Notes under the pieces: model-generated
Told to the model about the DNA's origin: nothing
The model's input: only the letters and a program-made list of their open reading frames with translations
The model's database searches: none
DNA from: Chytridium lagenaria
Taxonomy: Eukaryota; Chytridiomycota; Chytridiomycetes; Chytridiales; Chytridiaceae
Length of the DNA: 64,000 bases
Assembly: GCA_025449115.1 (NCBI GenBank)
Contig: JAHLKC010000052.1
Location: forward strand, 172,580-236,579
Direction: 5' to 3'
Made by a program: the position numbers and the translations under genes
Part shown: one piece after another, positions 7,002 through 63,745 of the stretch
How positions within the stretch are numbered: the first letter of the stretch is position 1
Layout of the letters: every line of letters begins with the position of its first letter

Positions 7002-9573
7002 ATGTCCACTTTTCCTCCCCCCATTTTATCCATCACTCCCAGCAAATGTGAATACGTGACCTGGTACGAGCCTCCCCCAAACACTGGTCTGACCTCCATG
7101 GCCTCGTGTGTGCAAACATGCCTCAATGAACGCAATGGCGACTCTACCCCCACCGGCCTCCCAAGACCCATCCAGGTCGGCGTTTCTCGTTCAAACGGTA
7201 CAGAGTTCAGAGTCACGTGTGTATGTCCCAGGCAGCGCGGGTTACTTTGAAGTCTCCAGAGCTCCCAACGGAAGAAACTGCAACACGCCTTGCGCGCAAG
7301 GAAGCATTGCTTCAGGATATGCCCCGTACAGTTGCGGTTTCTTTCCTATCCCAACGAGACCGGGTATTCCTGGTACCATTAATTACCACAAACGTTGTAT
7401 TTGGCTCATCTCCCTCTCCGTCTCCTTCCCCTTCCCCTTCTCCATCTCCATCTCCATCACCATCGCCATCACCAGATTCTACCACCATCACATCACCCCC
7501 TCCATCCTCATCCGTCTCTTCAACCCAAGTATTAACAACTTCCGTTGAAACCCTCGTCTTGACCTCCACCCTTTCTGGAACCGTTGTCACGTTTTTGAGC
7601 ACGAGGACATTTACTGGCGTCACGGATGTAGCTGGGAGTTCCTGTCATCACTGATTCCAGTGGAAATGGAAATCCCACCATTGGTACCGTGGAAGCCACT
7701 GGTCTAGCCCCGGTTCAATCGTCTTCTGGTACGCCCGTCAATGTGGTATGTATTTTATTTTCATCCTTTACCCATCCCGCTGCTAACCTTCCCTCTCTCT
7801 GTAATGTCAGCCCGTCGTCGTCGGCGCATCCCTCGCCTCTGTCGCCGTGCTAGCAGCTGCAGCTACCGTTCTTTACTTGAAGATGAAACCGCGTGTCCCG
7901 AAAGTTCCTCTTCCTTTGCGTCAAACCGGCAGCACCTCCTACCACTACTACTACACCTGCGCAACCAGGGCAGCCTAATCAGCATTTGCAGCATCATCAT
8001 CATCATCATCATCATCCTGGGACTGGTGGAGGTGGTGGTAGCTATGGACCGGCACAACCACCTGGAGGAGGAGGAGGTGCAGGAGGGGGCGGTGCTGGAG
8101 GAGGAGGAGGAGGGGTGGTGGTGCTGGAGGAGGAGGTGGTGCTGGAGGAGGAGGAGTGCTGGAGGAGGAGGAGGTGCTGGAGGGGGCGGTGCTGGAGGAG
8201 GAGGTGGAGCGGGAGGTGGCGGAAGCAACGTTCCCGTTACCGGAGGAGAATCATCATGGGGTCAATCCGGCGGCGGCAGCAGCGCTCCCACAAACGTCCC
8301 AGGTACAGAATCCACCTGGGGTCAATCCGGCGGAGGCGCCAGCGCTCCTACCGCCCCCACCGGTGCAGAATCATCTTGGGGCACCAGCGCAACTCAACCC
8401 ACCGTCCCCGTCGATCCCTCCGCAGGCGTCTCATCCCCGCTCCCGCTCCCACAGCTCCCTCAAACGTCCCCGCTGGCGGTCCCACTGGCGCCGAATCTGT
8501 CCCCACAGGCAACGGCGACTTCCTCTCAAACCTCACCGACCCCTCCACCATTGCTCAAACCGCCACTCCCAACATTCTAGGCGCCATTGGCCGTATCGCC
8601 CGCAAAAAAAGCGAAGAAGATCGACGAAAAGCCCTTCAAGCCACCGCAGGCGTTCACACTCTTCCCCCTGATTTCTCGGGAACTACACAGGTTATTACCA
8701 TGGATCCCCTTACACCGTCCTCAAAACCCTTATGCAAATCAAGCCGAATACATGGCGTCCGCAGAGTACCAGGCGGCGTATAATGAATACTTGAGACAGT
8801 ATGCGCAGTATGAGAGAGACATGGTGGCGTATCAGGAACAGTCAGAGGCGGCAGCGGTGGGGTCTTCGTTCTTCCCTGATCAACCTTATGATGAGGTCGC
8901 GGGGCAAAACTATGCAAAGGAGAAGTCGGGGCATCATGGACAGGGAGCTTTGTTTGGGGCGCATACGCAACAGGGGTCTTCGAGCGCATCGGCTTATGAT
9001 GGGAAACCGATTGTGAACGATAGGGTGTATGGAGGGGATGTGAAGGTGCCTTTTGCGAATACTGGAGATGTCAAGGTGCCCTTTTTCGACGACGACTACG
9101 ACGGCTTTGGAGCTGGAGAAGAAACGGTTAATGTATGAGCAGCCTTATGTGGAGATGGAGAAGGTTGTCGTGCCATTGACAAGGGTTGCACCACCTAGGA
9201 CTTGGAGTGGAAGCGTTACAGCAGGGGTAATTTTCTTTCAATATATTTCTGGAATTGTTCTTTTTTTTTTTTTTGGTATACTTTTACTAATGGACATGTG
9301 TAGAATGCGCTTTCGTGGACTTCTGATCAAGTGCGAAATTTCTTGCTGGGAAAGGGTTCACGCCTGATGTTGTTGCGGCGTTTGCAGGTACGATTTCTCC
9401 TCCTGTGTCGAATTGTAACGTACTTTTTTTTTGGTTAGTTCAACGTATTGACGGACTCGTGTTCCTTGCCACTCACCGACGCTGATCTTGTGAGAAGGAG
9501 GATTGGGAATGAGAAAGTTAGGGAACGGATTTTGGAGGTTGTGGAGGAGGTGAAAAGTAAGAAGGTAGTCTGG
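7002..9573 (+). CDS. Single-pass membrane protein: Cys-rich ectodomain, Ser/Pro stalk, Gly-rich tail and C-terminal SAM domain
   Basis: The start MSTFPPPILSITPSKCEYV leads into a Cys-rich segment (CVQTC, TCVC, NCNTPCAQG, YSCG) resembling fungal WSC-like ectodomains. A (SP)n tract follows at 7406-7480, then a Thr/Ser/Val stalk. After the intron at 7746-7810 comes a transmembrane helix (VVVGASLASVAVLAAAATVL) and a basic KMK. The cytoplasmic part has a His run, a polyglycine tract, three ESSWG(Q/T)SG-type repeats and an AEYxAAYNEY acidic region. Introns 9227-9303 and 9388-9438 interrupt a SAM-like domain (WTSDQVRNFLLGKGFTPDVV, then PLTDADLVRRRIG). At least six single-base frame breaks occur (near 7230, 7410, 7640, 7975, 9133, 9460). 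A cell-wall or stress sensor role is inferred from architecture only. The C-terminus is uncertain. Confidence 0.6.
7406..7480 (+). repeat. Hexamer/dipeptide repeat (CCNTCN)n encoding Ser-Pro stalk
   Basis: About twelve imperfect hexamers (TCTCCN/TCACCN) encode alternating Ser-Pro in one frame. Such tracts usually form O-mannosylated extended stalks in fungal surface proteins. The low complexity also makes this a likely site of length variation or consensus error. Confidence 0.8.
8025..8222 (+). repeat. GGA/GGT-rich low-complexity tract (polyglycine coding)
   Basis: Purine-rich trinucleotide repeats (GGAGGAGG, GGTGCTGGA units) read as glycine-rich in one frame and as Glu/Arg-rich in the others. 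Adjacent coding flips frame across it, so repeat-unit miscounts are likely here. Confidence 0.8.
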
Positions 9574-11067
9574 TTTTTGTGTAGAGGAATATTTCCAAAT
9601 TTTGGGAATGTTCTATATCAAGTTGTGTCCTTTCCTTTCTTTAAGTTCCTTTTCTTTGGGTGGACGCGGTGTTTTCGGTTTCAAGTGGATCTTTTTCCTC
9701 TCTTTTTCGATACTGTTCCATCTCCCCCTTTTTTTTCTTTTTTCTGTTCCAGTTGTTTTCCTTTCCGTCTTTTTTTTCTGTGAAAAGAATGTATCGTGTC
9801 GGTTTTTTTTTTTTAATTGCTCTCGTCCCCTGGTGGGAAAGCGGAGATGATATAACGCCCTTCCCATATTTTTTTTTCATTTGTGTTTGGCTGTTGTTCA
9901 CTTTATATGATGATGGGTCTTTTGAGGGTGGGGATTCTACATTTGTGTTTATAAGTAATCAGTAGATCTGGATATCAGCTTCTATGAAGCAATGAATAAC
10001 ATTGAAGTATACATTCCATTTAGGGACCCCTCTTAATGAAATATGACATGCCGGGCCAGTTCCGGAGGATTATAGTAATTCTGATAGAAGATAGGAAAAT
10101 GCTGCTACAGAAAGTTTACAAAATATGACTATCAGACTCACCCTTCTCACCATTCAACTTCTTTCATCGTAATTACGCGTGGGCAGCGGAATATCGTCCG
10201 GCGAAATCCATGACACAATATATCGAAGATCCCTTTACCTTTCAAATTCCTCACAGATACTACTTTATTTGGCTCAATAACGCTTTCACCCCGTATAGAG
10301 TGAACCCATTCTATCGCGTTTCACATTCACCTTTCGTATGCGAAAGCTTTGTTAAAATATTAGCAGGAGAAAATGGAGGGATTACCACTGAACTGCCCAA
10401 TATAGCCTTAGGAAAAGGATTTGTAAGACGGTTTTGATGAATTAGCGTCTATTTCGTCACCTCCCTCTCGTCCCCGGTTCGGGTGGGCTGGTGTATTTGG
10501 TGAGAAGATCTGGTATATATCATCGGCCGTAATCTGCGTAAAAAGGCACCGGCCACTAGATTCACGAATGAGAAAGTAAAGAAAAAAAATATACAATTTA
10601 TAGGTGCACCCTGTCTTCCCTGTATACTACTCTTAAGTGCTTTTTTATCGTGCGTGCTCTCGATTGATTGTAAAGGCGCGAAACTGTATGGTTGTCTAAG
10701 TCCCAAAATTGTTTTCAAACTGACCTGGCCATAAAACTTCAATTAGGATAATGTCATAATACACAAAGTTGAGAATTGCAGATTAGGGTCGAAACGAAGT
10801 TTACATATTGAGAGGAGAATGATGTCCGAACGACAGTGACCAGGTCATTATCGTGACGAGCTTTCAGAAGGTCTGCAGAGAGCTGCAAGTTTTAGATCTC
10901 CTGCTGATTATTGTTAAGAGAAATCGTACGGAGTGTGAGCAATCGCACGGGCTTACTGTGTACAGGTATTTGCAATATGGTGGACTGAGCCGATTGCCCA
11001 AAGATCATCGCAACAACACTGTATTAATAACTACGCGTCACTGTAAAATTTTGGATCCAATTCCATC
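9574..11067. other. Intergenic, no gene confirmed
   Basis: 9600-9850 is T-rich low-complexity DNA, probably the 3' untranslated region of the preceding gene. Short frames at 10210-10437 (+) and 10408-10596 (-) have no recognised domains. The minus one ends in a polar Ser/Asp/Asn tail and could be an exon, but no convincing partner exon was found. Confidence 0.4.
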
Positions 11068-12650
11068 ATGTCCTCCACTTCGAACATCACAGGAAACAAC
11101 GACGACGACCTAAGTCGCCGCGCGGCTACTTCTATTGAGGCTTCACAGGCTCCTCTCAGCTCATCCGTCATTCTCAACCTACTTGCGGACTCCGTATCCA
11201 CCGCTACACAGCAACAGGATGCGTCAAACGGTCTTCGGTCACCAGCTGACCTCGTCTTCGCCACCCTCCATGCCATCATGATCAGTTTAGGATTTCGATT
11301 CAGAGGACTTGGTGAGAGTGGATCCACACCATCTTCTGGGAGGAAGAGACTAGCCGTGCCGAGGGGGTGACAGGGATCGAGGTAGTGCAGTTGCCGGAAG
11401 GTTGGAACGCGCGGTGGTGGAATGTATGCTTTTCGATATACACATCCAAGGTCGGCCTTTACGTTTTTGTTAAAAGGGATGGGTATTGCGGACCGACTAG
11501 TCATTCACTGTCTTGCTATTGAAGTAAGATCCTATTTTAATCCTGTGTATGATACGTCATTTATCTAACCTATCACTTCAAAAAGGATAACCGCCTTCAG
11601 AGCGTAGAATTGACCGTCCCTACCATCGTTGCCAAGTCCGCCACCTTCCCGCCGTCTGCCCCATCTTCATCATCGTCTGGCGATTCATCATCATCCACCA
11701 GCAACCCCCTTCTGTCCCTCTTCGCCAGCGAGAAGGCACTCGTTGACCTCATCTTCAAGTTTAAGAAGGACATTGTTGACAAAGTTGCACCAAATCTCGG
11801 CAAGGAAGGATACGAGCCTACCGCCATCGATGCGGCATCGTCGTCGTCTGCTGCGAGGCAGGCTGAAAGGAGAAGGTTCCCTGAATTTGGCGGGATCGTA
11901 GATCCGGGGTTCGCGCCACCACCGGTGGGCGGTGGGTTTGGGCCGAGAGGTGGTTTACCGATGGGTGGACGGAATCCTTATGGTGTTGGGGATGTGGATT
12001 TGGATCCGTTTGCGGCTGCACCTGGAATAATTCCTCCTCGGTGAGCTTTTAAGTTTACATTGTACTCGTCTCTGCCATCATTTTTTTAACGTGATTATGT
12101 GCGTTTTCTTACACCTTTTCATTACAGTGGCGGAATGCATCCAGGTGGTGGAATGTTTGTTGGACCTGATCACCCCATGTTTGGTGGTGGTATGGGCGGC
12201 ATGGGAGGAGGTGGTGGGCGCTTCCCACCCGGTGGAGGGGGCTCTTTCCTGCCGCCAGGTGCGGTTCCGCCAGGTGCAAGGTTCGATCCTATCGGTCCCT
12301 TTGGTCCGCGACCAGGATTTGGAGGTGGAGGTATGGGAGGTGGACCTCGGGGACCTTTTGGACCTGGAGTTGGAGGTGGACCTTTGGGACCGTTTGGGCC
12401 CAATGCAGGTGGTGGGGCTCTTGGACCGTTTGGACCAGGTGTGGGAGGGGCCTCTTGGGCCGTTTGGGTCGGGTGTAGGAGGTCCTAGACCAGGGCTGGG
12501 GGTCCTCGGGACCCAACGAGGAGGTGAGCTTTGTTCGTTGTTCTTTTACGCCTTTGGATTGCTAATACAGTTCAACTTATATCTACTTTAAGATCGGACC
12601 CTGACTTTGATGAATTGCTTCCCCCTGGGTACGACAACATGTACCTTTAG
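11068..12650 (+). CDS. PI31-like proteasome regulator (FP domain plus Gly/Pro-rich tail)
   Basis: The N-terminus MSSTSNITGNNDD leads to the FP-type domain: DLVFATLHAIMISLGFRF, LPEGWN, then MYAFRYTHPRSAFTFLLKG and DRLVIHCLAIEDNRLQSVEL. A helical segment (ALVDLIFKFKKDIVDKVAPN) follows, then a long Gly/Pro/Phe-rich region with PFGPGVGGG repeats. It ends with the family's hallmark C-terminus LLPPGYDNMYL. PI31 proteins bind the 20S proteasome core through such tails and modulate its activity; action in cytosol/nucleus is expected. Introns: 11524-11585, 12041-12127, 12524-12592. Four one-base frame breaks were found, mostly at G runs (near 11350, 11412, 12448 and 12500). Reading across them yields a normal PI31, so these are probably sequence errors. 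Confidence 0.88.
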
Positions 12651-13051
12651 AATATAGCTTTGTGCCATACTTGCAATCTCCGTTGTTAGTGAGCGTGACC
12701 CCTTTACTTTAGAAAAATTCTTGCTCTATTGCTATAAGCTGTTTATCTGTATCATTTTAGAATATTATGAGGGGATTTAATGAGCGAGCTGGAAAGATCT
12801 GGAGATTTTATTTTATCACGCCCGCTTTAACGCTGGTTTTACAGTAATGGCCCTCCATTATATAGAAGTGTAACCTTGCAATTTGCGACGGACAAGGGGC
12901 CAACCAACACCTCCCAAACACCTTCCAATACTGCACCCGTCATTCCCTTATCACCACACGGGGTCAGGCACCTAACGACGACGTACTCTGCAGTTTTCAA
13001 GTGTTTCCTTGACGCATTTCACCCATAACGACCTGCGCAAGGAGACCGAGC
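12651..13051. other. Intergenic between tandem genes; nothing recognised
   Basis: Contains the 3' untranslated region of the PI31 gene and the likely promoter of the TBC gene. A CACC-rich stretch (12900-12965) precedes the ATG at 13052. No RNA gene or repeat was seen. Confidence 0.5.
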
Positions 13052-48547: not shown

Positions 48548-50275
48548 GTAGGTGTTTTTGGGGTTCCATTGTATTTTCTTTTTATTTTTTAAAGGCTGGC
48601 TGTGACTCTTCTGGCCCAATATCCGAAAAGTTCAGAGAAAACAATAACCAAACCACCAAAAGTGACCTGAGCCCACCAAAAAATAACAGGGTCTCAAGCT
48701 ACACTCACCAAAAATACAACAAAAACCGATCTTTCTAACACCTGGGGGTCTTCACCTGCGGGAGTCTTGTTACTGAACCTGGGAGCAAGCCAAGAGGGTG
48801 CCAAGAGGCCGTTCTGAATGAGGTTGGGAGAGGATGCCAAAGTCTGTAGCAGCAAGGTACTTGGGATATAGCAGGGTAGCGAGTTCTGCAGTGTTTCCTG
48901 TTCAAACCGATGTTGCTGGCGACTTCCTTCAGGGTGGTAGAAAGAGAGAGATCTTGAGGTGCCTCACGAGATGACCAAGAGACAGAGGGATGGGAGGTAA
49001 TTTGGGGACAGCAGAGTTAAAACGAGAGGTCTTTTTTTTTCTTCAGTCCAAAACTTCTGAGGACCTTCCACACAAAAACTGCCCCTTTTTATAGTCCATT
49101 TCCCTTCACAAAATTAAGTTACTATATACAATATGTCTTTCATCCTCCCTCCTCAGCCCTTTATCAAAGTTCTTGTTCTTTTTCTAAGTTGCAGCTTCAT
49201 CATTGGTTCCTCGCGAGGGATAAGGGTGGCCAAGGTGACGCCGAGGGGAAGGGATGGGCTGGTGATATATTCTTTACCATATAGGGGAGGTCTGGTGGCA
49301 GTCTTGGGTCCCAGAAGAGGAAAGGCAGCATGGATGGACTATTCCATGACTACACAATCCAACCTAAAATATCCTGTCTTCTTAGCACACCTGTTGTCCT
49401 TCCAGGTGGGCGCTATTCAATTGGTCAATACTTAGACCCCTTGAATAACCTTGTATGCCTAAAATCCACCCATGGGATGATAGGCGCTTATCATTACCTT
49501 TTCCAGTAACTTGTGTGCTTCTTCCCTGGAGGGAAAGTAAATTTAGCATGGTTTACTCCAGGATAGATGCCCTTCACGAAAAGTCCACATGGCAGGTGCT
49601 TTTTTTAATGTCAGGAACTTGTCGCGTCACGTCGCGCCAACATAAAACAGTGAGTTTTTGCATAAATGAGGAAAATATGTGCTTTCCCTTCTTCATAGTT
49701 TATGAGGTCATCCTGTCATCAAAGAAGACCCAAAATTGGTATCAGGAAACTGTATCCTGTGTAGCATGTACTGGGACATGTGGCGGCTGAATTCGCCAAG
49801 TTAACGGCTTGGTTCAAAGCCCCAAAACCAGGTACTCTAAACCTCCGTGAGCTCTTTTTCATGACTTTCTGTGTTAAACTTGTCAGATTTATTTCTCAAA
49901 AATAAATAAATTTCATAATTGACTATCAGTGATTTTGCACGGAGTTCATATTTCTAAAGCCTTGATGTTGGCACTTTGCTGTGGTCCCTATACTCTGGTG
50001 TAACTGATAGACGCGTTCTGACACGTCAAGGAGATTCAGTTTCTTCTCCTCTTCATTCGCTGTCAACAGTTTTTCTGAGTTGTTTGTTTACTCTTTTATG
50101 TTAATTTTAGTCTAAGTCTTTTGCCCTCTGGTTTATCCGCGCCTATATGCGGACGTGTCAAGTGAATAAAGCCTTATTCTCAACCTGTTTGGTTTGGTGT
50201 GATTATTGGTCTTTATTGACCGTGAACCATCATGAAGTTCACATGGCACACTTAAATTATAATCGATTTCTTTAG
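48548..50275. other. 1.7-kb non-coding block inside a gene, possible old insertion
   Basis: The donor GTAGGT at 48548 and an acceptor-like TTTCTTTAG near 50270 bracket a region far longer than any neighbouring intron (41-140 bp). Inside there is no frame with a recognised domain; short frames of ~100 codons are atypical. Candidate LTR-like termini (TGTGAC near 48600, GGCACA near 50247) lack a target duplication. Interpreted as a foreign or expanded intron, not proven. Confidence 0.35.
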
Positions 50276-50487
50276 GGTTCTGCTTCAACATCCGGTTCCC
50301 GTTGCTGCCACGCGCGAAAATATGCGTCAAGATGTCAACGTGGGTCATCAACAAGGAGAAGACGATACGGAGAATAACAATACCCTGCCAGGTATCAAGC
50401 GACGAAAGGGATACAATTCCCTCACGTATTTCAGCAAAGTTCGCAGTGCAGTCATACAAGAGGGTGAGGAATTTTGTGAACAAGAGG
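50276..50487 (+). pseudogene. HMG-box-like exon, 5' half, disrupted by a LINE
   Basis: Reads PVAATRENMRQDVNVGHQQG, a charged linker, then KRRKGYNSLTYFSKVRSAVI and QEGEEFCEQE, resembling helix 1 of an HMG box (basic start, then Y-F). The exon ends at GAG G, directly before the donor GTGAG, which falls inside the LINE's target duplication. The remaining box lies at 56441 on the far side of the LINE. In the undisrupted allele both halves would be joined over one ~74-bp intron. Confidence 0.6.
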
Positions 50488-50492
50488 GTGAG
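50470..50492. repeat. LINE target-site duplication, left copy (23 bp)
   Basis: AATTTTGTGAACAAGAGGGT continuing GAG is identical to 56349-56371. It spans the last 18 exon bases and first 5 intron bases. Confidence 0.9.
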
Positions 50493-50559
50493 GAAATCAT
50501 ACAAAGTGCCAAAAGAATCGAATACCAACCATCAGCGAAGCTCCAACACCATCCTGACC

Positions 50560-52460
50560 CCACCACACCGTCTGATCGGCCGATCCCAAAGGCCACGGAC
50601 GCTGTAGGTGCTTTTCACCTTCTGGAACGAGAAACACTCAAGAATCTTGATAAACATCGACTTATTTGCCCTACCTGCCATCAATCGGGGTGTCATTGGT
50701 CTAATAAAGGGAATACTGGAGCTACCAGCGCCGCAGGACCCGTCGCCTATCTATTCGGTGCAACGGCACCGTCTCATCTCCCTGTGGTCATTCCATACGC
50801 CTCGTCACCCTTCTGCTCAAACAAACCGACTCGGACTTTCTGGATATCGGCAATCAACTCCAGGACGCTCATACCAGCCTTGCAGCTGCATCTCGTGAAG
50901 AACAAGCTCTTCTCCGTCAACCCAGATCAACCCAAGCAAGCCCTCCACTCTGCCCAACAATCCCCTGTCCCTAAACCATCACCATCCATCCTGACTCACT
51001 TTAGCCGCCTTGCCTCCCCAGCCAAGCACTCTTCCCTCCCGCACCCAACGAGTATCCACTCCTGAACCATCATCCCCAACCCTGTTATCTCAGCTCTCTC
51101 CCCCAGCTCCTCCTCCTTACCTGAACGCCAACACCCAGCTCCTCCCGCATTACCCATCCCCCGTCACCATCCCCTTCCCAAATCTTCCCTTTTTTTTTCC
51201 CAATCTTTGACAAATTTACCCGACCAAGATCAAAACAGAGAGATGTCTACCAGCAAGCAGACATTCAAGTCGCCTCTCCCACCCACCGCCTCGTCTCTCG
51301 GCCTTGCCACACCGCCTCCGCCGACCATTCCGTCCTCGCCAGCATGAGCGCTCAGATGTCTGAGCTCCTCCAAGAAGTCCGACTCCTCCGTGAAGCAAAT
51401 GAACGACTCCAAGCTACTCTCGCCATCAAAGACCTTGAGATCCGCCGCCTAACAAGCAAAGCCGAGGCCCCCAAACCCATCCTGACAGCTAGTACTACCC
51501 CTACACCACCGCCTACAACTAACAAAGCCACCAACATGAGACTGAGGAGGATGGAAGGTCGGGAGTCGAGTGAAGATAAACAGATGGCCGTTCTCCAAGC
51601 CAACATCACCAAATCTGTTGTCTCAGAAGTTATGGCCGCTCTTGACGCTAAAGACTCTTTCGCCAGCAGCAGCCACCCCAACGACGTCCTCCGCCCAAAA
51701 CTTTTTCTCAGCACTTTGACACCAGTACCCCCCGCACACCTGCTGGGATATGAGCTTTGCTGCAGCTACACGCCAAATCGCCCGCGGCAATGCCACCCCT
51801 GAACACGCCGCAAGAATTGTCTTCCGCAGCACCTTCCCACGCAGCTCCATCACCGGTATCTCCAATGTTTACATGCTGGTTACGTTCCCAAAGGCCCTCT
51901 CCGCTACGTACTATCCGTAACGCCTCTGCTGACTATTGGCATTGAGACCGGTGTTCTGGAAATCAGTTTTGTTGGACAGTCGGTTGTTCACCTTTTCTGT
52001 GATGACAGCAAAGTGGAAGACATACGCACCCGCCTAGCCGCCAAGGGAGTTTTTCTCCCTGATTTCAACCCCTAGAAGTCCCTGTCCTGGTGGTAGCTAG
52101 TAGCAAAACCAAGACCGAACGAGAAGCCGAAAGTCGCCGTAATTGTGCCCGACGCCTTGGGCTATGTATTACCGCGGAGGACAGCAGATTAAAGCGGCGT
52201 GTTTAGAAGGATTCGATGAAGATTTTGTTGAAGAAATTAGACTTGCTGCTAGTGAATACGCCATGGACCGATCTCGTCAATCTGCAGCAGCTGTATTTGG
52301 AGACACTGCTCCACCGTTGGAGGAGGAGGAACGACCTTTAGCTAAACCTCGGAAGCTTGCCAAACGCGTACCTGATGCACCTGCAGTTGCTGCAATGCCG
52401 ACATACAACCGCTTCGAGCATTTGAAGGTGATGATAACCAGATCGTGGACACCGACATGA
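50560..52460 (+). pseudogene. LINE ORF1 (zinc-ribbon-like N-terminus, coiled coil)
   Basis: GAFHLLERETLKNLDKHRLI leads to CPTCHQSGCHWS, a CxxC-H-type motif also present at 61530-61620 in a second element copy. Pro/Ser-rich sequence follows, then MSAQMSELLQEVRLLREANE and RLQATLAIKDLEIRRLTS (51344 on), a coiled coil typical of LINE ORF1 multimerisation. Later frames (AACLEGFDEDFVEEIRLAAS; 52210) read on in a different frame. At least three breaks make it non-functional as read. Confidence 0.7.
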
Positions 52461-52534
52461 GTGAGACCCATACAGCAACAGACATTAACGCGACCGTTAA
52501 TGTCTGAGGACGACCCACAGCATATTTTGCGGCT

Positions 52535-53230
52535 TGGATTCATTAACGCCCATGGACTAAGTGGTAAGGCTGATTTAATAACTGACGTATGTACTCATTA
52601 GAAATTGACCTCATGGCTGTCGTCGAAACCTGGTTGACCCCAACCGACGGGGTTCCTCTTCGACGTGTGGTGGTTAACGCCGCTGCTCCACCACGGCAAC
52701 AACACGCTCCTGGCCAAGCTACTGGACCGCGGGGCCATAAAGGAGTACTGATTGTGGATCCTGGAGAAAAGAGGTGGGGGTGGAAGTGGTGGGATATGAT
52801 GATGTGGCAAATGGGCTGCCGTGAAGGTTGGCCTCTGGTAATAATTATAGGTTATTTACCACCGCTTTCGGGGATGCGGTTGCGGCAGCAGCCATGCTGC
52901 TTGCATTTTCTACGTTCAGGGATCGGTGTTGCTTAGATACCCCACCTCACCGGTGGTGGTTATTGGGGACTTTAATGCTAGGATGGGGGCATTAACTGGA
53001 GATACAATGGTGGACCAGATAGAGGCGACGGTCGTGGATGAAGAATTGGATGGATGATCCAGAGTGGACTCGACTGGAACCTACCTCTGGAAATGGACGA
53101 CGCATTCATTTAACGGCAACGGGGTGACGGACCTGGCTTTGTTAATACCTTAGCATTACCACTGGTGCCAGAGTTAGTGGTACACGAGAAGATTACGCTG
53201 GGGAGCGACCACCTCTCCTCACTCTAGAGA
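52535..53230 (+). pseudogene. LINE ORF2 part 1: APE-type endonuclease
   Basis: RLGFINAHGLSGKADLITD, then LEIDLMAVVETWLTPTDG, VVVIGDFNARMGALTGDT near 52960 and ITLGSDHLSSL near 53200. These are the expected metal-binding and catalytic blocks (E in ETWL, D/N in GDFNA, D/H in SDH). The blocks are in different frames and a stop follows SDHLSSL. The endonuclease nicks the target strand that primes reverse transcription. Confidence 0.8.
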
Positions 53231-53543
53231 TCTCACTCCCCACCTCTTTCTGGAAACCGGCTTCTCGAGAATAACGTACGAAAGCTGGAAGGGAGGGATT
53301 AGAAAGGTTCAAGTCACGATTGGGAAGAAAGACGGGACACCTTGATGACGCAATTGGGAATGCTTGAGGTTACGGCAGCTGCACGACGTGTCACTCAGAC
53401 GTGTTGGGATGGAGGAACGACAACTTCTGTGGATGAGGCCTCGATAGCTGTTACAAAGTGGATTTTAAAGCCGCAGACTATGCAGTGGGGAGATTTAAGT
53501 TTAAAGGCGGACCCCACATAGTGGATTCGACACTCCGCATATT

Positions 53544-54962
53544 GTGGCATTGCGGGAACTGGCTCAAGCGGCACATGTAGCTTTTGCGGACTCACACCCC
53601 ATCTCAAACGCAAACGTTGGCGTTATCGTTGGAAGCCAACCGCATTTACCGACAAGCCGTCAAGAATTCACCGGACCCGGACTTTTCGCCAGCACGCCGA
53701 CGAACTCCTCCGCAAACCTCAAGTCGCAGCAAAGATACTGTCGTTCATCTGTCCCGTCAACAACGCTCCATTGTGGTCTGGATCCTGCTAAGTTACATGA
53801 ATACACGCAACACTTCAAGACAACTTTTGGTGCCGCACCGACTGGAACCGCCATGCCTGATGACGCCTTTCTTGACGCAACCGACCCCAAGGCTCCACGC
53901 AAAGTACTCCCCGACCCTTCGTGGATCACCGATGATATTATGGCTTTAGTGTTACACGCGACACCCTCTGGAAAGGCGACAGGTGCCGACGAGATCTTCG
54001 GGGAGATGCTATCGAGAGCCTCCCTTCTCATTAAAGACCCCCTACGCATTCTTTTCAATCTGGTAGCAATATACAACGCGGTGCCGTCTTCCTGGGTGGT
54101 CTCTAACGTGGCTTTGGTCTTCAAGAACAAGGGGAGTAACCAGGACGTCGCCAACTACCGCCCTATCTCGCTCATCTCCGTTATTCGCAAGTTGTTTGAA
54201 GCCGTTCTGAGACCTGTCATGGATAAGAGGATCCAACCTTACCTTGATATTGCTCAGGGCGGTTTCCGCAGCCACCGTTCCTGCCTTGATCAAGTATTTA
54301 ATCTACACGAAATCCTCCAGCACAACCCTGGCCTCAAGACGCTGTATCTGGACATCAAGGCCGCCTACGACACCGTGGACCGCCGCCTGCTCTGGTCTCG
54401 GTTTGCTCACTTACCTGCGTCACCGGTGACTCCCTGGGGGGGTGAAGCCTTTGATACAGAGACCCGTGATTCCGTTGTTCCTCTCCTTCGTTGTTTATTT
54501 GATTTTAATGTTGCTTACCTCCTGGTCCTTGGTTTTCGTTCTGATCCCATTCCTGTACAACGTGGTCTCCTCCAAGGGACACGGCTGGCTCCTGTTTTAT
54601 TCCTTTGGTTCATAAATCCTCTCCCTACTCGCTTACGCTCCCTTCATCAAACTCCTGTTGTTAACATTGCGGGTTGCCGCCTTAACTCTTTATTTCTAGC
54701 TGACGATACGACAATTTTTGCGGCGACCCTACCGACATTGCAACGTTTAGCCAAGGAGTGTTATGAGTGGGGGAAGGAGGTGGGGATTGAGTATGCACCG
54801 ACCAAGTCGGTTTTGGTCGCGGAGGGAATAGATACACTTGAGATGGGGGATGTGGTGCTGCACCCACAATCGTCGGCGGGGTTTCAGGATGGTGATGGGG
54901 TTACTGGGGGATATTACGGCGTCAATGATAAAACGAACCAACAAAGCACGCCGAACTATTAG
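53544..54962 (+). pseudogene. LINE ORF2 part 2: reverse transcriptase
   Basis: A 472-codon frame holds the RT: WVVSNVALVFKNKGSNQDVA, NYRPISLISVIRKLFE, FRSHRSCLDQVFNLHEILQ, TLYLDIKAAYDTVDR (motif A), QGTRLAPVLFLWFINPL (motif B region) and LNSLFLADDTTIFAAT (motif C, L-A-D-D). The frame ends at 54962, and the thumb/C-terminal part continues in other frames to about 55500, with a Cys/His cluster (QPCYNCDDDDAELAGTC) near 55640. Confidence 0.9.
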
Positions 54963-56348
54963 TCTCTTTCGTAGTCGAGGGATGAATGCGTGGGATGGAG
55001 CCTTCCTTTCAATTCTTCTGTTTAAAATGTTTATTCTCCTCTTTTTGAATATGGTCTTTCTTTACGCCCCCTTAATGATTCTGAGTTATCTCCTCTTCAA
55101 AGTCTCCAATCCACTGCACTTGATCCATCTTCTCTGTCCCTGTTTCCCACTAGTCTTTCTGCTCTTCACCTTTTCTGTAATGTCGTTCCTATGTCCTCGC
55201 GCAACCACACCTTAAACGCTTCTTTTCTCTTCCGTCTCCATCAAACAATGACGCCGGCCACTTGGCCGCGCGTATTTACCGCTTTTCTCGTGATCATGTT
55301 GTTACCTCCTCTTTGGTTCGCCGCTCAATTACCTCCACCTACCGTTTCTCTAATCCTCTTGGCCCTCTGTTTCTCCATTCCTTCAAAATATTGTCTTTAA
55401 CCTTTGTCCTGTTATCCATTCAAGTGCCGGCCAACCTCGTGACTCAGCACACCGCCTTCCCTCAGCCTTCTTTGACATTGCTCACCGAACCGCTCTGACG
55501 ACCCTTCGCGATGATGGATCTCGTTTAGGCCGTGCTTTCCCTGTCCTGGCTCGTGGCCGTCGTCATCGTATCATAGCGTCCGGCTCCATCCTTCATCGTC
55601 ACCAATTCAATGCTCTCGCTTACTGGATGTTGGACGCGTCGCTTACCACCAACCCTGCTACAACTGCGATGATGACGACGCCGAGTTAGCCGGAACATGC
55701 GTGGTCTCACTCAAGTAGACGCCTATCTCCTTGATGCAATCCCCACCCTACCGCTCTCTCTTCCTCAAGCACCAGGCTCCACTGTTCTCGATGTCCTCCT
55801 TTCGCGTCTTCGTTTCCCAGCCAATGCCACTCGCCTTCACCCCTCCCGTGTGAATGTCGTCTTTTGTGGAGGGGATTGAACGCATTCGTTGGAGATGCTC
55901 TGGACTCTGGCCTCTGTGGGATCTCGTCGCCAACTCGAGAGCAAGGGAACTTCAAGATATCATTGATGGTGCGCGACTTCCAGACCTGTATCGGTGGTAA
56001 CGTCTCGGCAAGAACTCGGCGGCTGACGCGGGCGGTGCTGCAAGATCATTGGGTGTTGGCACCTGAGGACCCTCTCTGAGGGTCCCGTATTTTATTTCTT
56101 TTCACGCTTTATGGTTGGTTGTTAAATACTTTTTACGTTTTATGGTTGGGTGTTGTTCCTTCTTGTTTAATCCTTTCTCCACGTTTACGCTTCCTGTTTC
56201 TCTTTACTCTAACGGTTGTTGCGCGTGGACTTTTGTTTCTTCTCGTGTAGTTCGTCATTGTACTTTTGTTACTGTCCTTTACGCCTGTACACCGATTTTT
56301 GAGTGCCCACCTTAGTCTTTCTTTGGATTGACGGGTCTTGGGACAATA

Positions 56349-57405: not shown

Positions 57406-57654
57406 ATTTCTGATTTCGCTTTTAATTCCTGTTTTATTTTCTGTTTCGGTTCCCCTTTTTGCCTCTTCACATTTACTTAAAAATATGTCGTTGATGAATA
57501 ATGTTTTTTTGAATAAAAATGGGTTTCAGTGACCTTTAAAATATTACATATTTCAACTTAACTGTTTTTTATTCTATTGCTGTTTTGGTTTAAATAGAAA
57601 AAGTCTGTCGTTCCTTGAAACTATTGACTTCAAAAAAAATTAAATCCTGGTTTT
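57406..57654. other. AT-rich spacer after the HMG-like gene
   Basis: Contains the gene's 3' region. No other feature. Confidence 0.4.
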
Positions 57655-57945
57655 TTTATTAATCCAAAATATCTACGAAAAACGCGTTTTTTATATGTTT
57701 TTTAGTTAATCCAAAATATCTCAAATAATGAGTTTTTTTAGTGTTTTTCGTTAGTCTAAAATATCTACGAAAAAAGTGTTTTTTTATTTTTTTTTTAGTT
57801 TATCTAAAATATCTTCGAAAAACGCGTTTTTTTATTTTTTTTTAGTTCATCAAAAATATCTACGAAAAACGCGTTTTTTTTAACTTTTTAGTTAGTATAA
57901 ACTATCCACGAAAAACGCGTTTTTCAAATGGTTTTTAGTTAATAT
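57655..57945. repeat. Minisatellite of ~47 bp units with palindromic AAAAACGCGTTTTT core
   Basis: Six diverged units in tandem, each about AATCCAAAATATCTACGAAA continuing into AACGCGTTTTTTATATTTTT and TTAGTT. The core AAAAACGCGTTTTT is a perfect palindrome in four of the six units; two units are mutated (AATAATGAG, AAAAAAGTG). Unit boundaries approximate. Confidence 0.8.
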
Positions 57946-59675: not shown

Positions 59676-61381
59676 TACATGGGGGTCCCCACAGGGTTAT
59701 CGATTTTTTTGTGTGACTTGACTTAATATGAAATGTAGCCCTGTTTGCGACGATCTCGAAACCGGTTTAACCCTCAATCAAATTGTCAAAATTGAGCGAC
59801 GTACAAGCGTCGGAAGTTTCACATTTTTATAAGTAATAATTAGTAGACTTGTCGCTGTCCTGCGGCAAGATCTAATGGTCAGATCTTGCTCAAATTTTGC
59901 AGAGATGTCAGAAACAGTGTCAAATATATATTGTATGACTCAAATGAGTAGCATGGAATTTATGTTTACTATATGATTGGCGGATTTTCCGAAACAATCG
60001 GGACATTTCTAACTTTAAGTCTGTATAACATGGAAACAAATGGTCAGAATTTGCTGATACTTTGCACAAGCATAGATATCGATACCAGAAACGATATGCA
60101 TGACTTAGAATAGGGTGGTACAAAGTGACTCTATTAAGGTCCACCCTCCCCGCGTGCCAGAGTACTTAGGAATCGGGATGGTATACATAATTGCGGGAAT
60201 GTTGAGGTGATTTTGAGTGAGAATGAATGGTCAGAACTTTGTGATACTTTGCACACATATAGATATTGGATTAACTAACAATATGCAAGTCTCAGATTGG
60301 GGTGATACAAGTAGACTGTATTAAGGTACTCACTTCCCGAGCGCATGTGACTTAGTAAACGGAAACCTATTGGGAAAATTGAGTTAGATTGGGTGATCAG
60401 ATGTTTGTGAAACTCAGCAAACGTATAGATTTCGATATTGAGAAGAATACACTGGTATCAGATTGGTGTGGTACAAAGTGTGGGTATTATGTATCTCCCT
60501 AATGGAGTGAAAGTGTTCTCTGTAAACGGGTTTCAATATTGAACAGATCAAGTCAAGACAAAAGATAGAATAGATTTTATAAAGTTTATTAATTTTAAAA
60601 GTTATGACATAAGTTGTGCTGACTATTTGTGTCCAAACCGTCCCCTGAAACCTCTAATGCGGGTACCTGGTTTGGTTGTAGTTGCATCACCTTCACCAAC
60701 AAGATCAAAGGATGGGCCTGCAATATCACTCAAGTGGTCTGAATCAGAATCGTCAATAAGCACTATCTGGGTAGCAGGATGGCTATGACCACCCAAACTC
60801 TTTCCCAAATATTTTCATGGGAGGGCCAACAACCACACTCAAGTCGGAATCGGAATCATGACTTGCACATCCATATCTACATCGTCACTGTCATCCACCA
60901 CATAGATGGTAGAATCATGGATGGTTGCCCTGGGTGGAGAATGAGATCGTTGTGGAGGTAATGGATGATGCACTGAATTGGTTGGACTAGATTGGGGTGG
61001 ATGGTGATTAAGGTGATGGGGAGATGGTGGTGGTTGAAGTTGATGTGATCTGCGAGGCATGGGTGGAGGTGAAGGTGAATGTTCTTGAGTGAAGGTGAAA
61101 GTGAAGGTGAATGTCCTTGAAGTGGCTGACGCAAAGATGCAAAGGCAGTGTCTTCTAAGAGCTCATCCACAATCCTCTTGAGGGCATAGTTGGCCTTGCG
61201 CATGTTGACCTGTTTGCACACCTAAATCTCAACTGCCTTTCAGCTGTTCAAAAAGAAGGATTAATACATATGAAAAAATAGAAAATGGAGAGAATGGCAG
61301 GAGATCTTACATCTAACACTATGAAGCTTTCCACCACAATCCCTGCATCTGAAACGCGACTTGTATCTTAGTACTAGTGTC
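59676..61381 (-). mobile_element. Subtelomeric element copy 1 (longest, ~1.7 kb)
   Basis: Begins TACATGGGGGTCCCCACAGG. It is followed by ~950 bp of conserved non-coding sequence, then a minus-strand coding region. It ends against an interstitial TTAGGGTTAGG at 61382. The left border is shared exactly with copies at 61823, 62413, 62620 and 63727, and only copy 1 extends beyond the ORF end. Because the border is fixed and the opposite end varies, the sense strand is taken as minus, with its 3' end at the left. Confidence 0.7.
60623..61345 (-). pseudogene. Coding remnant of the subtelomeric element with SUMO-interaction-like motifs
   Basis: From the right: RYKSRFRCRDCGGKLHSVRC (61320-61370), a CxxC...H...C zinc-like block, then VNMRKANYALKRIVDELLED and TAFASLRQPLQ, then a His/Pro-rich low-complexity stretch. 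The C-terminal part has two hydrophobic-acidic motifs, STIYVVDDSDDVDMDVQV and TQIVLIDDSDSDHLSDIAG, and ends RGFRGRFGHK at 60623. The blocks are in different frames. Such V/I-rich cores followed by D/S/E are typical of SUMO-interaction motifs. Copy 4 keeps only the last ~50 residues. No RT or transposase core is present. Confidence 0.5.
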
Positions 61382-61392
61382 TTAGGGTTAGG
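61382..61392 (+). repeat. Interstitial telomeric repeat (TTAGGGTTAGG)
   Basis: Short telomeric stub in the same orientation as the chromosome end, marking the distal end of copy 1 and the start of a LINE fragment. Confidence 0.85.
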
Positions 61393-61822
61393 AAAAAACT
61401 CTCCACCTCAAAAATCACAAAGTGCATACATCAACGACCCCATCTCGCCCATCTCCCCTTGGCCCTCTTGGCCGCAAGCCTACACCCACTCCCCCTCTCG
61501 TTCCTGTCATCTCTGATGACGATTTCCCGGCGTTTGAGCTCCAGAAGTGGCGGGGTCTGGACAAGAACTCCATTGAATGCCCCAAATGCCATCAGATTGG
61601 CGGCATCTGGTCCATTTCTGCATCAACCAGCGTATTTGGCCTCAAAAGAACCTATCTGACTTGTACTCGCACTCTCCACGCCACCAATCGACGCTGCAAC
61701 TGGACTGACACCGTTCTGGATCTCCTGGCAAAGCAGACCTACCCTCTGTACCTCTCCACAGCTCGTCGAATTCTCACTGTTTACAAGAACCTCCCCAGCT
61801 CCTCGAATCTCTCTATCAACCT
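61393..61822 (+). mobile_element. 5' fragment of a second LINE of the same family
   Basis: Begins with AATCACAAAGTGC, like the 5' end of the LINE at 50493, then encodes MHTSTTPSRPSPLGPLGRKP, FPAFELQKWRGLDKNSIECP, KCHQIGGIWS, and TYLTCTRTLHATNRRCNWTD. The CPKCHQxGxxWS block aligns with CPTCHQSGCHWS of the intact element. The intact version here has more Cys pairs (CTR...C), so this copy preserves the zinc domain better. It ends abruptly at the next TACATGGGGG border. Confidence 0.75.
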
Positions 61823-62404
61823 ACATGGGGGTCCCCACAGGGTTATCGATTTTTTTGTGTGACTTGACTTAATATGAAATGTAGCCCGTGTTGCGACGAT
61901 CTCCGAAACCGGTTTAACCCTCAATCAAATTGTCAAAATTGAGCGACGTACAAGCGTCGGAAGTTTCAAATTTTCTTAAGTAATAATTAGTAGACTTGTT
62001 GCCGTCCTGCGGCAAGATCTAATGGTCAGATCTTGCTCAAATTTTGCAGAGATGTCAGAAACAGTGTTTAATGTATATTGTATGACTCAAATGGGTAGCA
62101 TGGAATTTATGTTTACTATATGATTGGCGGATTTTCCGAAAAAATCGGGAGATTTCAAACTTTAAGTCTGTATAACATGTAAACAAATGGTCAGAATTTG
62201 CTGATACTTTGCAATAGCATAGATATCGATACCAGGAACGATATCCATCGCACAGAATAGGGTGGTACAAAGTGACTCTATTAAGGTCCACCCTCCCCGC
62301 GTGCCAGAGTACTTAGTAATCGGGATGGTATACATAATTGCGGGAATGTTGAGGTGATTTTGAGTGAGAATGAATGGTCAGAACTTTGTGATACTTTGCA
62401 CACA
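61823..62404 (-). mobile_element. Subtelomeric element copy 2 (~0.58 kb, truncated)
   Basis: Identical left border TACATGGGGGTCCCC. Sequence tracks copy 1 to about 62404 (CTTTGCACACA), then stops at TTTAGGG. Confidence 0.8.
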
Positions 62405-62412
62405 CTTTAGGG

Positions 62413-62611
62413 TACATGGGGGTCCCCGCAGGGTTATCGATTTTTTTGTGTGACTTGACTTAATATGAAATGTAGCCCTTGTTGCGGCGATCTCGAAACC
62501 GGTTTAACCCTCAATCAAATTGTCAAAATTGAGCGACGTACAAGCGTCGGAAGTTTCAAATTTTCTTAAGTAATAATTAGTAGACTTGTCGCCGTCCTGT
62601 GGCAAGATCTA
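62413..62611 (-). mobile_element. Subtelomeric element copy 3 (~0.2 kb, truncated)
   Basis: Starts after TTTAGGG. Tracks copy 1 for about 200 bp to GGCAAGATCTA, then meets CTTATGGG. Confidence 0.8.
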
Positions 62612-62619
62612 CTTATGGG

Positions 62620-63720
62620 TACATGGGGGTCCCCACAGGGTTATCGATTTTTTGTGTGTGACTTGACTTAATATGAAATATAGCCCTTGTTGCGACGATC
62701 TCCGAAACCGGTTTTACCCTCAATCAAATTGTCAAAATTGAGCGACGTACAAGCGTCGGAAGTTTCAAATTTTCTTAAGTATTAATTAATAGACTTGTCG
62801 CTGTCCTGCGGCAAGATGTAATGGTCAGATCTTGCTCAAATTTTGCAGAGATGTCAGAAACAGTGTAACATATATAGTGTATGACTCAAATGGTAGCATG
62901 GAATTTATGTTTACTATATGATTGGCGGATTTTCCGAAAAAATCGGGGAGATTTCAAACTTTAAGTCTGTATAACATGGAAAGAAATGGTCAGAATTTGC
63001 TGATACTTTGCACAAGCATAGATATCGATACCAGAAACGATATGAACGACTCAGAATAGGGTGGTACAAAGTGACTCTATTAAGGTCCACCCTCCCCGCG
63101 TGCCAGAGTACTTAGGAATCGGGATGGTATACATAATTGCGGGAATGTTGAGGTGATTTTGAGTGAGAATGAATGTCAGAACTTTGTGATTCCTTGCACA
63201 CATATAGATATTGGATCACCTAACAATATGCAAGTCTCAGATTGGGGTATACAAGTAGACTGTATTAAGGTACTCACTTCCCGAGCGCATGTGACTTAGT
63301 AAACGGAAACCTATTGGGAAAATTGAGTTAGATTGGGTAATCAGATGTTTGTGAAACTCAGCAAACGTATAGATTTCGATATTGAGAAGAATACACTGGT
63401 ATCAGATTGGTGTGGTACAAAGTGTGAGTATTATGTATCTCCCTTATGGAGTGAAATGTTCTCTGTAAACCGGTTTCAATATTGAACAGATCAAGTCAAG
63501 ACAAAAGATAGAATAGATTTATAAAGTTTATTAATTTTAAAAGTTATGACATAAGTTGTGCTGACTATTTGTGTCCAAACCGTCCCCTGAAACCTCTCAT
63601 GCGGGTACCTGGTTTAGTTGTAGTTGCATCACCTTCACCAACAAGATCAAAGGATGGGCCTGCAATATCACTCAAGTGGTCTGAATCAGAATCGTCAATA
63701 AGCACTATCTTGGTAGCAGG
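62620..63720 (-). mobile_element. Subtelomeric element copy 4 (~1.1 kb, truncated in the ORF)
   Basis: Same left border. Tracks copy 1 (59676-60779) with ~95% or better identity by eye, includes the C-terminus RGFRGRFGHK (stop 63565-63567), and ends at GGTAGCAGG directly before TTAGGG. Confidence 0.8.
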
Positions 63721-63726
63721 TTAGGG

Positions 63727-63745
63727 TACATGGGGGTGCCCGAGG
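63727..63745 (-). mobile_element. Subtelomeric element copy 5 (19-bp border only)
   Basis: TACATGGGGGTGCCCGAGG between TTAGGG stubs. A still shorter relic (TTAGGGTACATAGGG) follows at 63770-63784. Confidence 0.75.

Follow-up and report, generated by a model that had tools for sequence, protein, structure and literature searches.

The right end of contig C52 of the chytrid fungus Chytridium lagenaria (JAHLKC010000052.1, assembly GCA_025449115.1, a genome of 41.9 Mb in 356 contigs) carries in its last 4.3 kb an array of five copies of a subtelomeric element, called here element A, and of its close relative, element B. The window, that is, the whole stretch of 64,000 nucleotides analysed (positions 172,580 to 236,579 of the contig), ends together with the contig, inside TTAGGG repeats, and coordinates given below without a contig name refer to it. 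The copies open with the border TACATGGGGG, from which the element runs towards the telomere; the borders are located at 59676, 61822, 62413, 62620 and 63727, all on the plus strand. The sense of the element is the minus strand, in which the copies have a single fixed 3' end and are truncated at their 5' ends. As argued below from the sequence, element A is probably a non-autonomous retroelement of chromosome ends, added by end-primed reverse transcription.

Copies 1 to 4 belong to element A, and their alignment to copy 1 and to a longer copy on C86 indicates that all of them begin at element base 1. Copy 1 (59676..61383, minus strand, 1708 bp), whose 3' end at 59676 abuts non-telomeric DNA, includes a non-coding 3' stretch of 947 bp past the stop codon of the A gene (59676..60622, minus strand), and retains in that gene a 67-bp intron with the ends GTAAG...ACAG (61244..61310, minus strand), supported by the spliced protein model P0121. 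The telomeric stub TTAGGGTTAGG (61382..61392, plus strand), the first TT of which is common to the element, marks its 5' truncation, and is followed by a fragment of an open reading frame (ORF) that bears a C-x2-C motif and lies antisense to the elements (61393..61821, plus strand). This fragment shares 34% identity over 65 amino acids with an ORF at 50529-50723, upstream of the reverse transcriptase (RT) of a long interspersed nuclear element (LINE) in the window. Copy 2 (61822..62404, minus strand, 583 bp) is joined directly to the fragment, with no stub. Copy 3 (62413..62611, minus strand, 199 bp) has the stub CTTTAGGG in front; copy 4 (62620..63720, minus strand, 1101 bp) is preceded by CTTATGGG, with the imperfect stub TTATGGG; and copy 5 (63727..63745, minus strand, 19 bp, delimited by eye), preceded by the stub GGTTAGGG, leads into the terminal TTAGGG tract, which extends for 255 bp up to the contig end (63746..64000, plus strand). 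Copies 2 to 4 align with copy 1 over 199-1101 further bases at 95-96% identity; when three mismatches to the border 15-mer were allowed, five window matches arose by chance in 3 of 100 shuffles.

The original prediction, made from the letters of the window, had described one exact border in five or more copies stopping at about 1.7, 0.58, 0.2 and 1.1 kb and 19 bp, with a telomeric stub usually intervening. The stops agree with the aligned lengths. The exact border stands for copies 1 to 4, copy 5 having a B-type border with one mismatch (TACATGGGGGTGCCC), and stubs are present before copies 3, 4 and 5 and after copy 1, with non-telomeric DNA before copies 1 and 2.

Genome-wide, the exact A border is found 68 times, versus none for a backwards-read control, on the minus strand near contig starts and on the plus strand near the ends of large contigs. 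Two sister families, B (the border of copy 5) and C (TACATAGGGGTCCCC), have closely similar 3' ends, and the unrelated families D (GTTATACGGGCATTATGG), R/S (GTTATAAGGGCCTGTGGG) and E (ACACTTAGGACTGCG) show the same behaviour with fixed borders of their own. In contigs of at least 50 kb, 163 of the 164 copies of families A to D and R, distributed over 57 contig ends, point at the nearest contig end (A 48/48, B 20/20, C 16/16, D 35/35, R 44/45), as do 12/12 E copies counted by eye, the sole exception being an R border with two mismatches (C185:24565). Median distances to the contig end are 1.8-4.6 kb across families, the most distant facing copy being an R border on C63, 46.6 kb from the end. 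Contigs below 50 kb were excluded from this count (A 20/68, B 3/23, C 4/20, D 6/41, R 6/51, E 9/21), the nearest-end rule being uninformative in them; it would fail, for instance, for several C249 copies, C278:7191, C207:22728 and C221:33989, the last a C match with two mismatches that would sit on the wrong side. By eye, all copies in each of these small contigs share one strand. Before counting, rows with an exact border of the other sister family were removed, C97:150979 from the 24 B rows (an exact C border) and 19 from the 39 C rows (borders exactly of B type), and the lengths of C2, C13, C51 and C115 (for E, likewise, C2, C13, C51 and C129) were estimated from contig order.

A further candidate border, family F (TGTGAAGTTCTC), was discarded, as it occurs in both orientations and reads as the long terminal repeat (LTR) of an insertion in E on C71. 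This LTR-type insertion, oriented 8004-12811 (L043, L044), splits E, and its direct repeats, about 0.9 kb long, begin with TGTGAAG.

The 3' borders are as regular as the orientation. At the oriented loci, pieces starting at reference base 1-3 amount to 45/47 in A, 14/14 in B, 7/9 in C, 11/15 in D, 10/11 in R and 11/18 in S; in A, one of the two exceptions has a small deletion next to its border and the other is a tandemly duplicated piece, and the exceptions of S are mostly, by eye, second alignments within one repetitive copy. The distal (5') ends, on the other hand, are distinct in 40/44 A, 13/14 B, 9/9 C and 13/13 D copies, the A copies counted being 36-1703 bp long, with longer ones on C86 and C249. 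Among 96 junctions, 89 distinct upstream contexts were recognised, and most junctions look like separate events. Six right ends finish in a terminal tract, and in four of them (the window, L033, L035 and L042) this tract adjoins a truncated copy of A or B; the remaining two have a short E piece (L036) and a long E-bearing stretch (L043+44). The pattern foreseen from the window, subtelomeric, like-oriented, 5'-truncated copies with an exact 3' border, holds for the whole genome, copies in the opposite orientation being limited, in contigs of at least 50 kb, to the single one cited above and varying borders not being seen for A.

It could be thought that the border is a preferred signal for breakage and telomere addition in ordinary subtelomeric DNA, or an artefact of repeat assembly, and it is true that the copies are repetitive and that (TTAGGG)4 is found 357 times on the forward strand and never on the reverse one, telomere tracts being restricted to right contig ends, which indicates that the assembly of ends is not clean. 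Yet several unrelated borders follow the same pattern at 57 contig ends, with neighbours that change from one to the next, and a breakage signal would not leave a common element on one side of the junction in 89 different contexts, which makes this possibility very improbable.

The junctions obey two joining rules. At the 65 A/B/C junctions, the base at -1 is G in 53 and at least GGG of telomeric repeat precedes the border in 40, the exact telomeric suffix being 0-16 nucleotides (nt) long, 2 nt or less in 25 and none in 12. Considering any phase, 33 of 35 stubs of at least 4 nt end in GGG, and where an unbroken copy reveals the broken end, the filler often amounts to no more than G, GG, GGG, AGGG, TAGGG or TTAGGG. 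This filler starts in any phase and stops at GGG, which suggests either that telomerase pauses at GGG before the element RNA or that this RNA has a CCC(UAA) tail. D/R/S follow another rule: no stub of at least 4 nt is present in any of 32 rows, and 10 of the 20 analysable junctions show 2-5 nt of microhomology to the border (GTT, GTTA), versus 6.7% expected for at least 2 nt (binomial 1.9e-7; with repeats removed, 8/17 and 5.8e-6). An RNA ending in UAUAAC would pair with chromosome ends carrying GTT or GTTA. The other ten junctions contain 1-33 nt of filler. No oligo(A) was seen at the 3' junctions listed, which have G-rich stubs or direct joins instead.

These rules also bear on recombination of the kind attributed to Y' elements. 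According to it, an end with a TTAGGG stub would invade a TTAGGG|TACATGG junction, copy outwards by break-induced replication, break again and be healed by telomerase, the fixed border being the mere edge of telomeric homology. The 40 junctions with at least GGG would agree with this process, but the borders remain exact in the 25 A/B/C junctions with 2 nt of suffix or less, including the 12 with none, and in D/R/S, where none of the 32 rows has a stub of at least 4 nt. In its favour are also the tandem duplications, the junctions found at more than one locus (examples of the two being L041, L047 and an A|S junction present on three contigs), the retained introns described below and the fact that MoTeR arrays are reported to grow partly in this way (PMC7367193); nevertheless, it predicts that the outer truncation and the neighbours of the donor are carried along, against the 40 distinct 5' ends of A and the 89 distinct contexts. 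Thus, such recombination is an unlikely origin for the copies, and end-primed reverse transcription fits the sequence data better, in which the 3' borders are fixed, the 5' ends vary, the orientation is nearly uniform, most junctions are distinct and TTAGGG repeats form the caps.

Several of these families carry genes. The longest A copy read (C249, 2718 bp) has a split gene with cysteine pairs, its introns being deduced from reading frames and splice-like ends, and begins near a possible start codon; in window copy 1 the reading frame of the gene is damaged. A 52% homologue of the A protein is encoded by C on C56. Over 127 codons, the comparison of A and C gives a pN of 0.29, a pS of 0.74 and a dN/dS of about 0.11, with dS saturated, and at the sequence level shows the A gene to be under purifying selection. 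E encodes a distant relative (27% identity in one comparison, 33% in another), with a splice-like GTAAG at the matching place. Protein searches with one A ORF and one E ORF returned only C. lagenaria proteins, two each; Pfam contained nothing above cut-off for the A or E ORFs, helicases included, and the best match of a PDB profile search reached only E 0.24.

No RT was found in those parts of A, C and E that were read, in agreement with the RT-less remnant described in the original prediction, and this holds for the TACATGG element even in its 2718-bp copy. It has to be considered that A, C and E could belong, as 3' parts, to autonomous elements, the RT located upstream, of Penelope type or too diverged for the RVT_1 profile, being missing from the copies read. 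Their behaviour and kept introns match those described for endonuclease-deficient Penelope-like elements (PMC3846280), the 5' end of A may lie beyond its longest copy, which begins near a possible start codon, and RVT_1 may overlook Penelope-type RTs, the telomerase locus on C9 being absent from the RVT_1 matches listed. However, the telomere-side stretches read, including some 10 kb of C71 that carry E, contain no RT-like ORF, and RVT_1 gave no match on C71 or C86 among the 150 of 189 candidates scored, which leaves autonomous elements a rather doubtful explanation. Full-length copies devoid of RT had been named in the original prediction as a refutation of telomere attachment; the long RT-less copies go part of the way towards this, but may be incomplete, and the idea survives if the element is non-autonomous and an RT acts on it in trans.

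The best visible source of such an RT is element R, the border copies of which have the same placement and orientation as those of the other families. The R copy on C331 contains, about 0.4 kb inside its border, an open frame of 731 amino acids, cut by the contig end, which matches RVT_1 (E 5.5e-19); the C9 and C27 copies align from border R into this ORF, and the coordinates on C155 and C40 agree. This RT adjoins a copy of A, and was considered as the missing part of A, the RT that the original prediction had hoped to find at the same 3' end; this idea was dropped, since the border map places it in R, with its own border. The R RT resembles LINE-1 ORF2p and proteins also bearing APE-type endonuclease domains (PF03372/PF14529), its best named match being from Chytriomyces confervae (39%). 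PF14529 is located upstream of the RT in R relatives (e.g., C40:7756-8133), with none beside the C331, C155 and C170 copies among the matches listed. Of the earlier comparison with Penelope-like or HeT-A/TART-type elements, the telomere-attaching behaviour is maintained, the RT linked to it is LINE-type, and a likeness to Penelope has not emerged. PF12009 points to a telomerase gene at C9:275401-275915, where two stretches exceed the cut-off and internal stops may be introns.

A common 3' end in two elements is the usual sign of one RT serving both. The last 75 bp or so are common to R and S, and S shows no RT in the stretches read, which suggests that one RT may serve the two. MoTeR1 and MoTeR2 are described as a fungal case of an RT element and an RT-less partner with shared termini (PMC7367193). 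For A/B/C, we infer an RNA template, an RT and the action in trans of that of R. Apart from this, at C30:329543-330208 (L039) an R-type border lies 6 bp past the point where an R-related RT ORF of opposite orientation breaks off, which gives the impression of a break within that gene healed by an element.

On these grounds, a sequence of events can be proposed. The 3'-OH of the G strand, at a broken or shortened end, would prime the reverse transcription of an A-type RNA, starting precisely from the 3' end of this RNA. Synthesis would usually stop early, so that copies are fixed at their inner border and ragged at their outer end, to which telomerase or the next element would then be added, and repeated rounds would generate nested arrays. 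A/B/C would be joined past a GGG-ending stub, either because telomerase adds the stub and pauses or because the RNA has a CCCUAA-like 3' tail, and the D/R/S RNAs would anneal through their 3' UAUAAC to chromosome ends finishing in GTT(A). Alternatively, telomerase itself, rather than a transposon RT, could copy CCCUAA-tailed A/B/C RNAs onto exposed G-overhangs. This would explain the phase lock at GGG, the stubs of 0-16 nt, the RT-less A, C and E stretches read and the kept introns, and A/B/C would then be genes riding on telomerase, although we give this version only a slim chance.

A number of observations weigh against end-primed addition of RNA copies served by the RT of R. The introns are retained in 3/3 A copies read that reach that site (window, C86 and C249), unlike what is expected from the copying of spliced mRNA; A, C and E are RT-less as far as read; the full GGG is present in only 40 of the 65 A/B/C junctions; and the one-strand telomere tracts belong here too. 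Folds of the five border ends were no better than shuffles (z -0.94 to 1.10), and a 3'-terminal RNA hairpin as recognition signal was dropped on this account. The junctions common to several loci or tandemly duplicated mean that recombination also acts at these ends. In addition, R-related RT ORFs occur in both orientations, which means that this family, taken together, does not spread by end addition alone. Such ORFs are placed at steps of about 6 kb on one strand, mostly near contig ends (C62, C120, C24, C40, C172, C278, C318 and C337), and those of C62, C120, C24 and C172 point towards the contig end, opposite to the border-R copies. The sense of the R-related LINE-like element of the window (50256-56079, plus strand) also runs towards the telomere; its RT (53505-54962, RVT_1 E 3.2e-22) is 60% identical to that of C331, the frames after the RT are damaged, and the upstream ORF (50256-51065) has a C-x2-C motif.

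Telomere attachment in itself matches behaviour already known from other systems. Y' elements and telomere-linked helicases are gene-bearing subtelomeric repeats with short telomeric tracts between them, and Coprina is an endonuclease-deficient Penelope-like element with end-primed addition. The A-type elements are likewise gene-bearing repeats separated by short telomeric tracts, but differ from Y' elements in having no helicase match in the A or E ORFs and borders that are exact even where telomeric homology is lacking. Endonuclease-deficient Penelope-like elements and Terminons are described as confined to chromosome ends by end-primed addition, 5'-truncated and followed by telomeric repeats, with introns retained in Penelope-like elements and extra genes carried (PMC3846280, PMC5537684). 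The end-confined, 5'-truncated and telomere-capped chytrid copies, with their genes and introns, are similar to Athena, Coprina and Terminons, from which they differ in that no Penelope-type RT was found (RVT_1, 150 of 189 candidates scored), the linked RT being LINE-type.

Other similarities concern the Drosophila elements HeT-A, TART and TAHRE, described as head-to-tail arrays in one orientation at chromosome ends, HeT-A having a gene, a long 3' untranslated region and no RT, and being thought to borrow that of TART/TAHRE, whose polymerase is of the APE-type LINE class (PMC5537684). The chytrid elements are also one-oriented at ends; A has a conserved gene, a long 3' stretch and no RT in the stretches read, and a separate RT element with end-facing borders (R, on C331) would, if acting in trans on A, recall the pairing of HeT-A with TART/TAHRE. 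In contrast to Drosophila, this fungus has a telomerase gene and TTAGGG caps, its junctions show telomeric stubs or microhomology and lack oligo(A) next to the border, and the A protein, compared with the Gag-like gene of HeT-A, has no Pfam match above cut-off. Among fungi, the MoTeR1/MoTeR2 elements of Magnaporthe form telomeric head-to-tail arrays with truncated copies and short TTAGGG tracts between them (PMC7367193), and FoTeR of Fusarium forms similar arrays of an RT element and an RT-less partner sharing termini (PMC12857005); both are CRE-type, with a restriction-like endonuclease and telomere-like termini. The telomeric repeats between copies resemble them in part, in A/B/C and not in D/R/S, and so does the terminus shared by R and S. 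Unlike MoTeR and FoTeR, the chytrid termini are non-telomeric, D/R/S are joined with no telomeric repeat, and the linked RT is LINE/APE-like by its similarities.

What would be new, judging from the sequence, is the presence of several telomere-attaching families, RT-less gene-bearing ones among them, with two joining rules in a chytrid that has a telomerase gene. The literature searched, judged by title and start of abstract, contained no paper on chytrid telomeric retroelements and none pairing C. lagenaria with 'retrotransposon', those naming the species being concerned, by their titles, with other matters. If the reading is correct, telomere-building retroelements extend to chytrid fungi, and the RT-less element A, with its conserved gene, would be a fungal parallel to HeT-A. 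The 96 junctions of the loci read are a rich archive, left by nature, of the turns that telomerase and other reverse transcription may take at one and the same chromosome end, and the proposed copying of A by telomerase can now be put to a direct test.

As regards the rest of the window, no Rfam matches were obtained in it at gathering cut-offs. Just inside the subtelomeric array, at 57650-57943, lies a 47-bp tandem repeat of 6.3 copies, with ACGCGTTTTTT.

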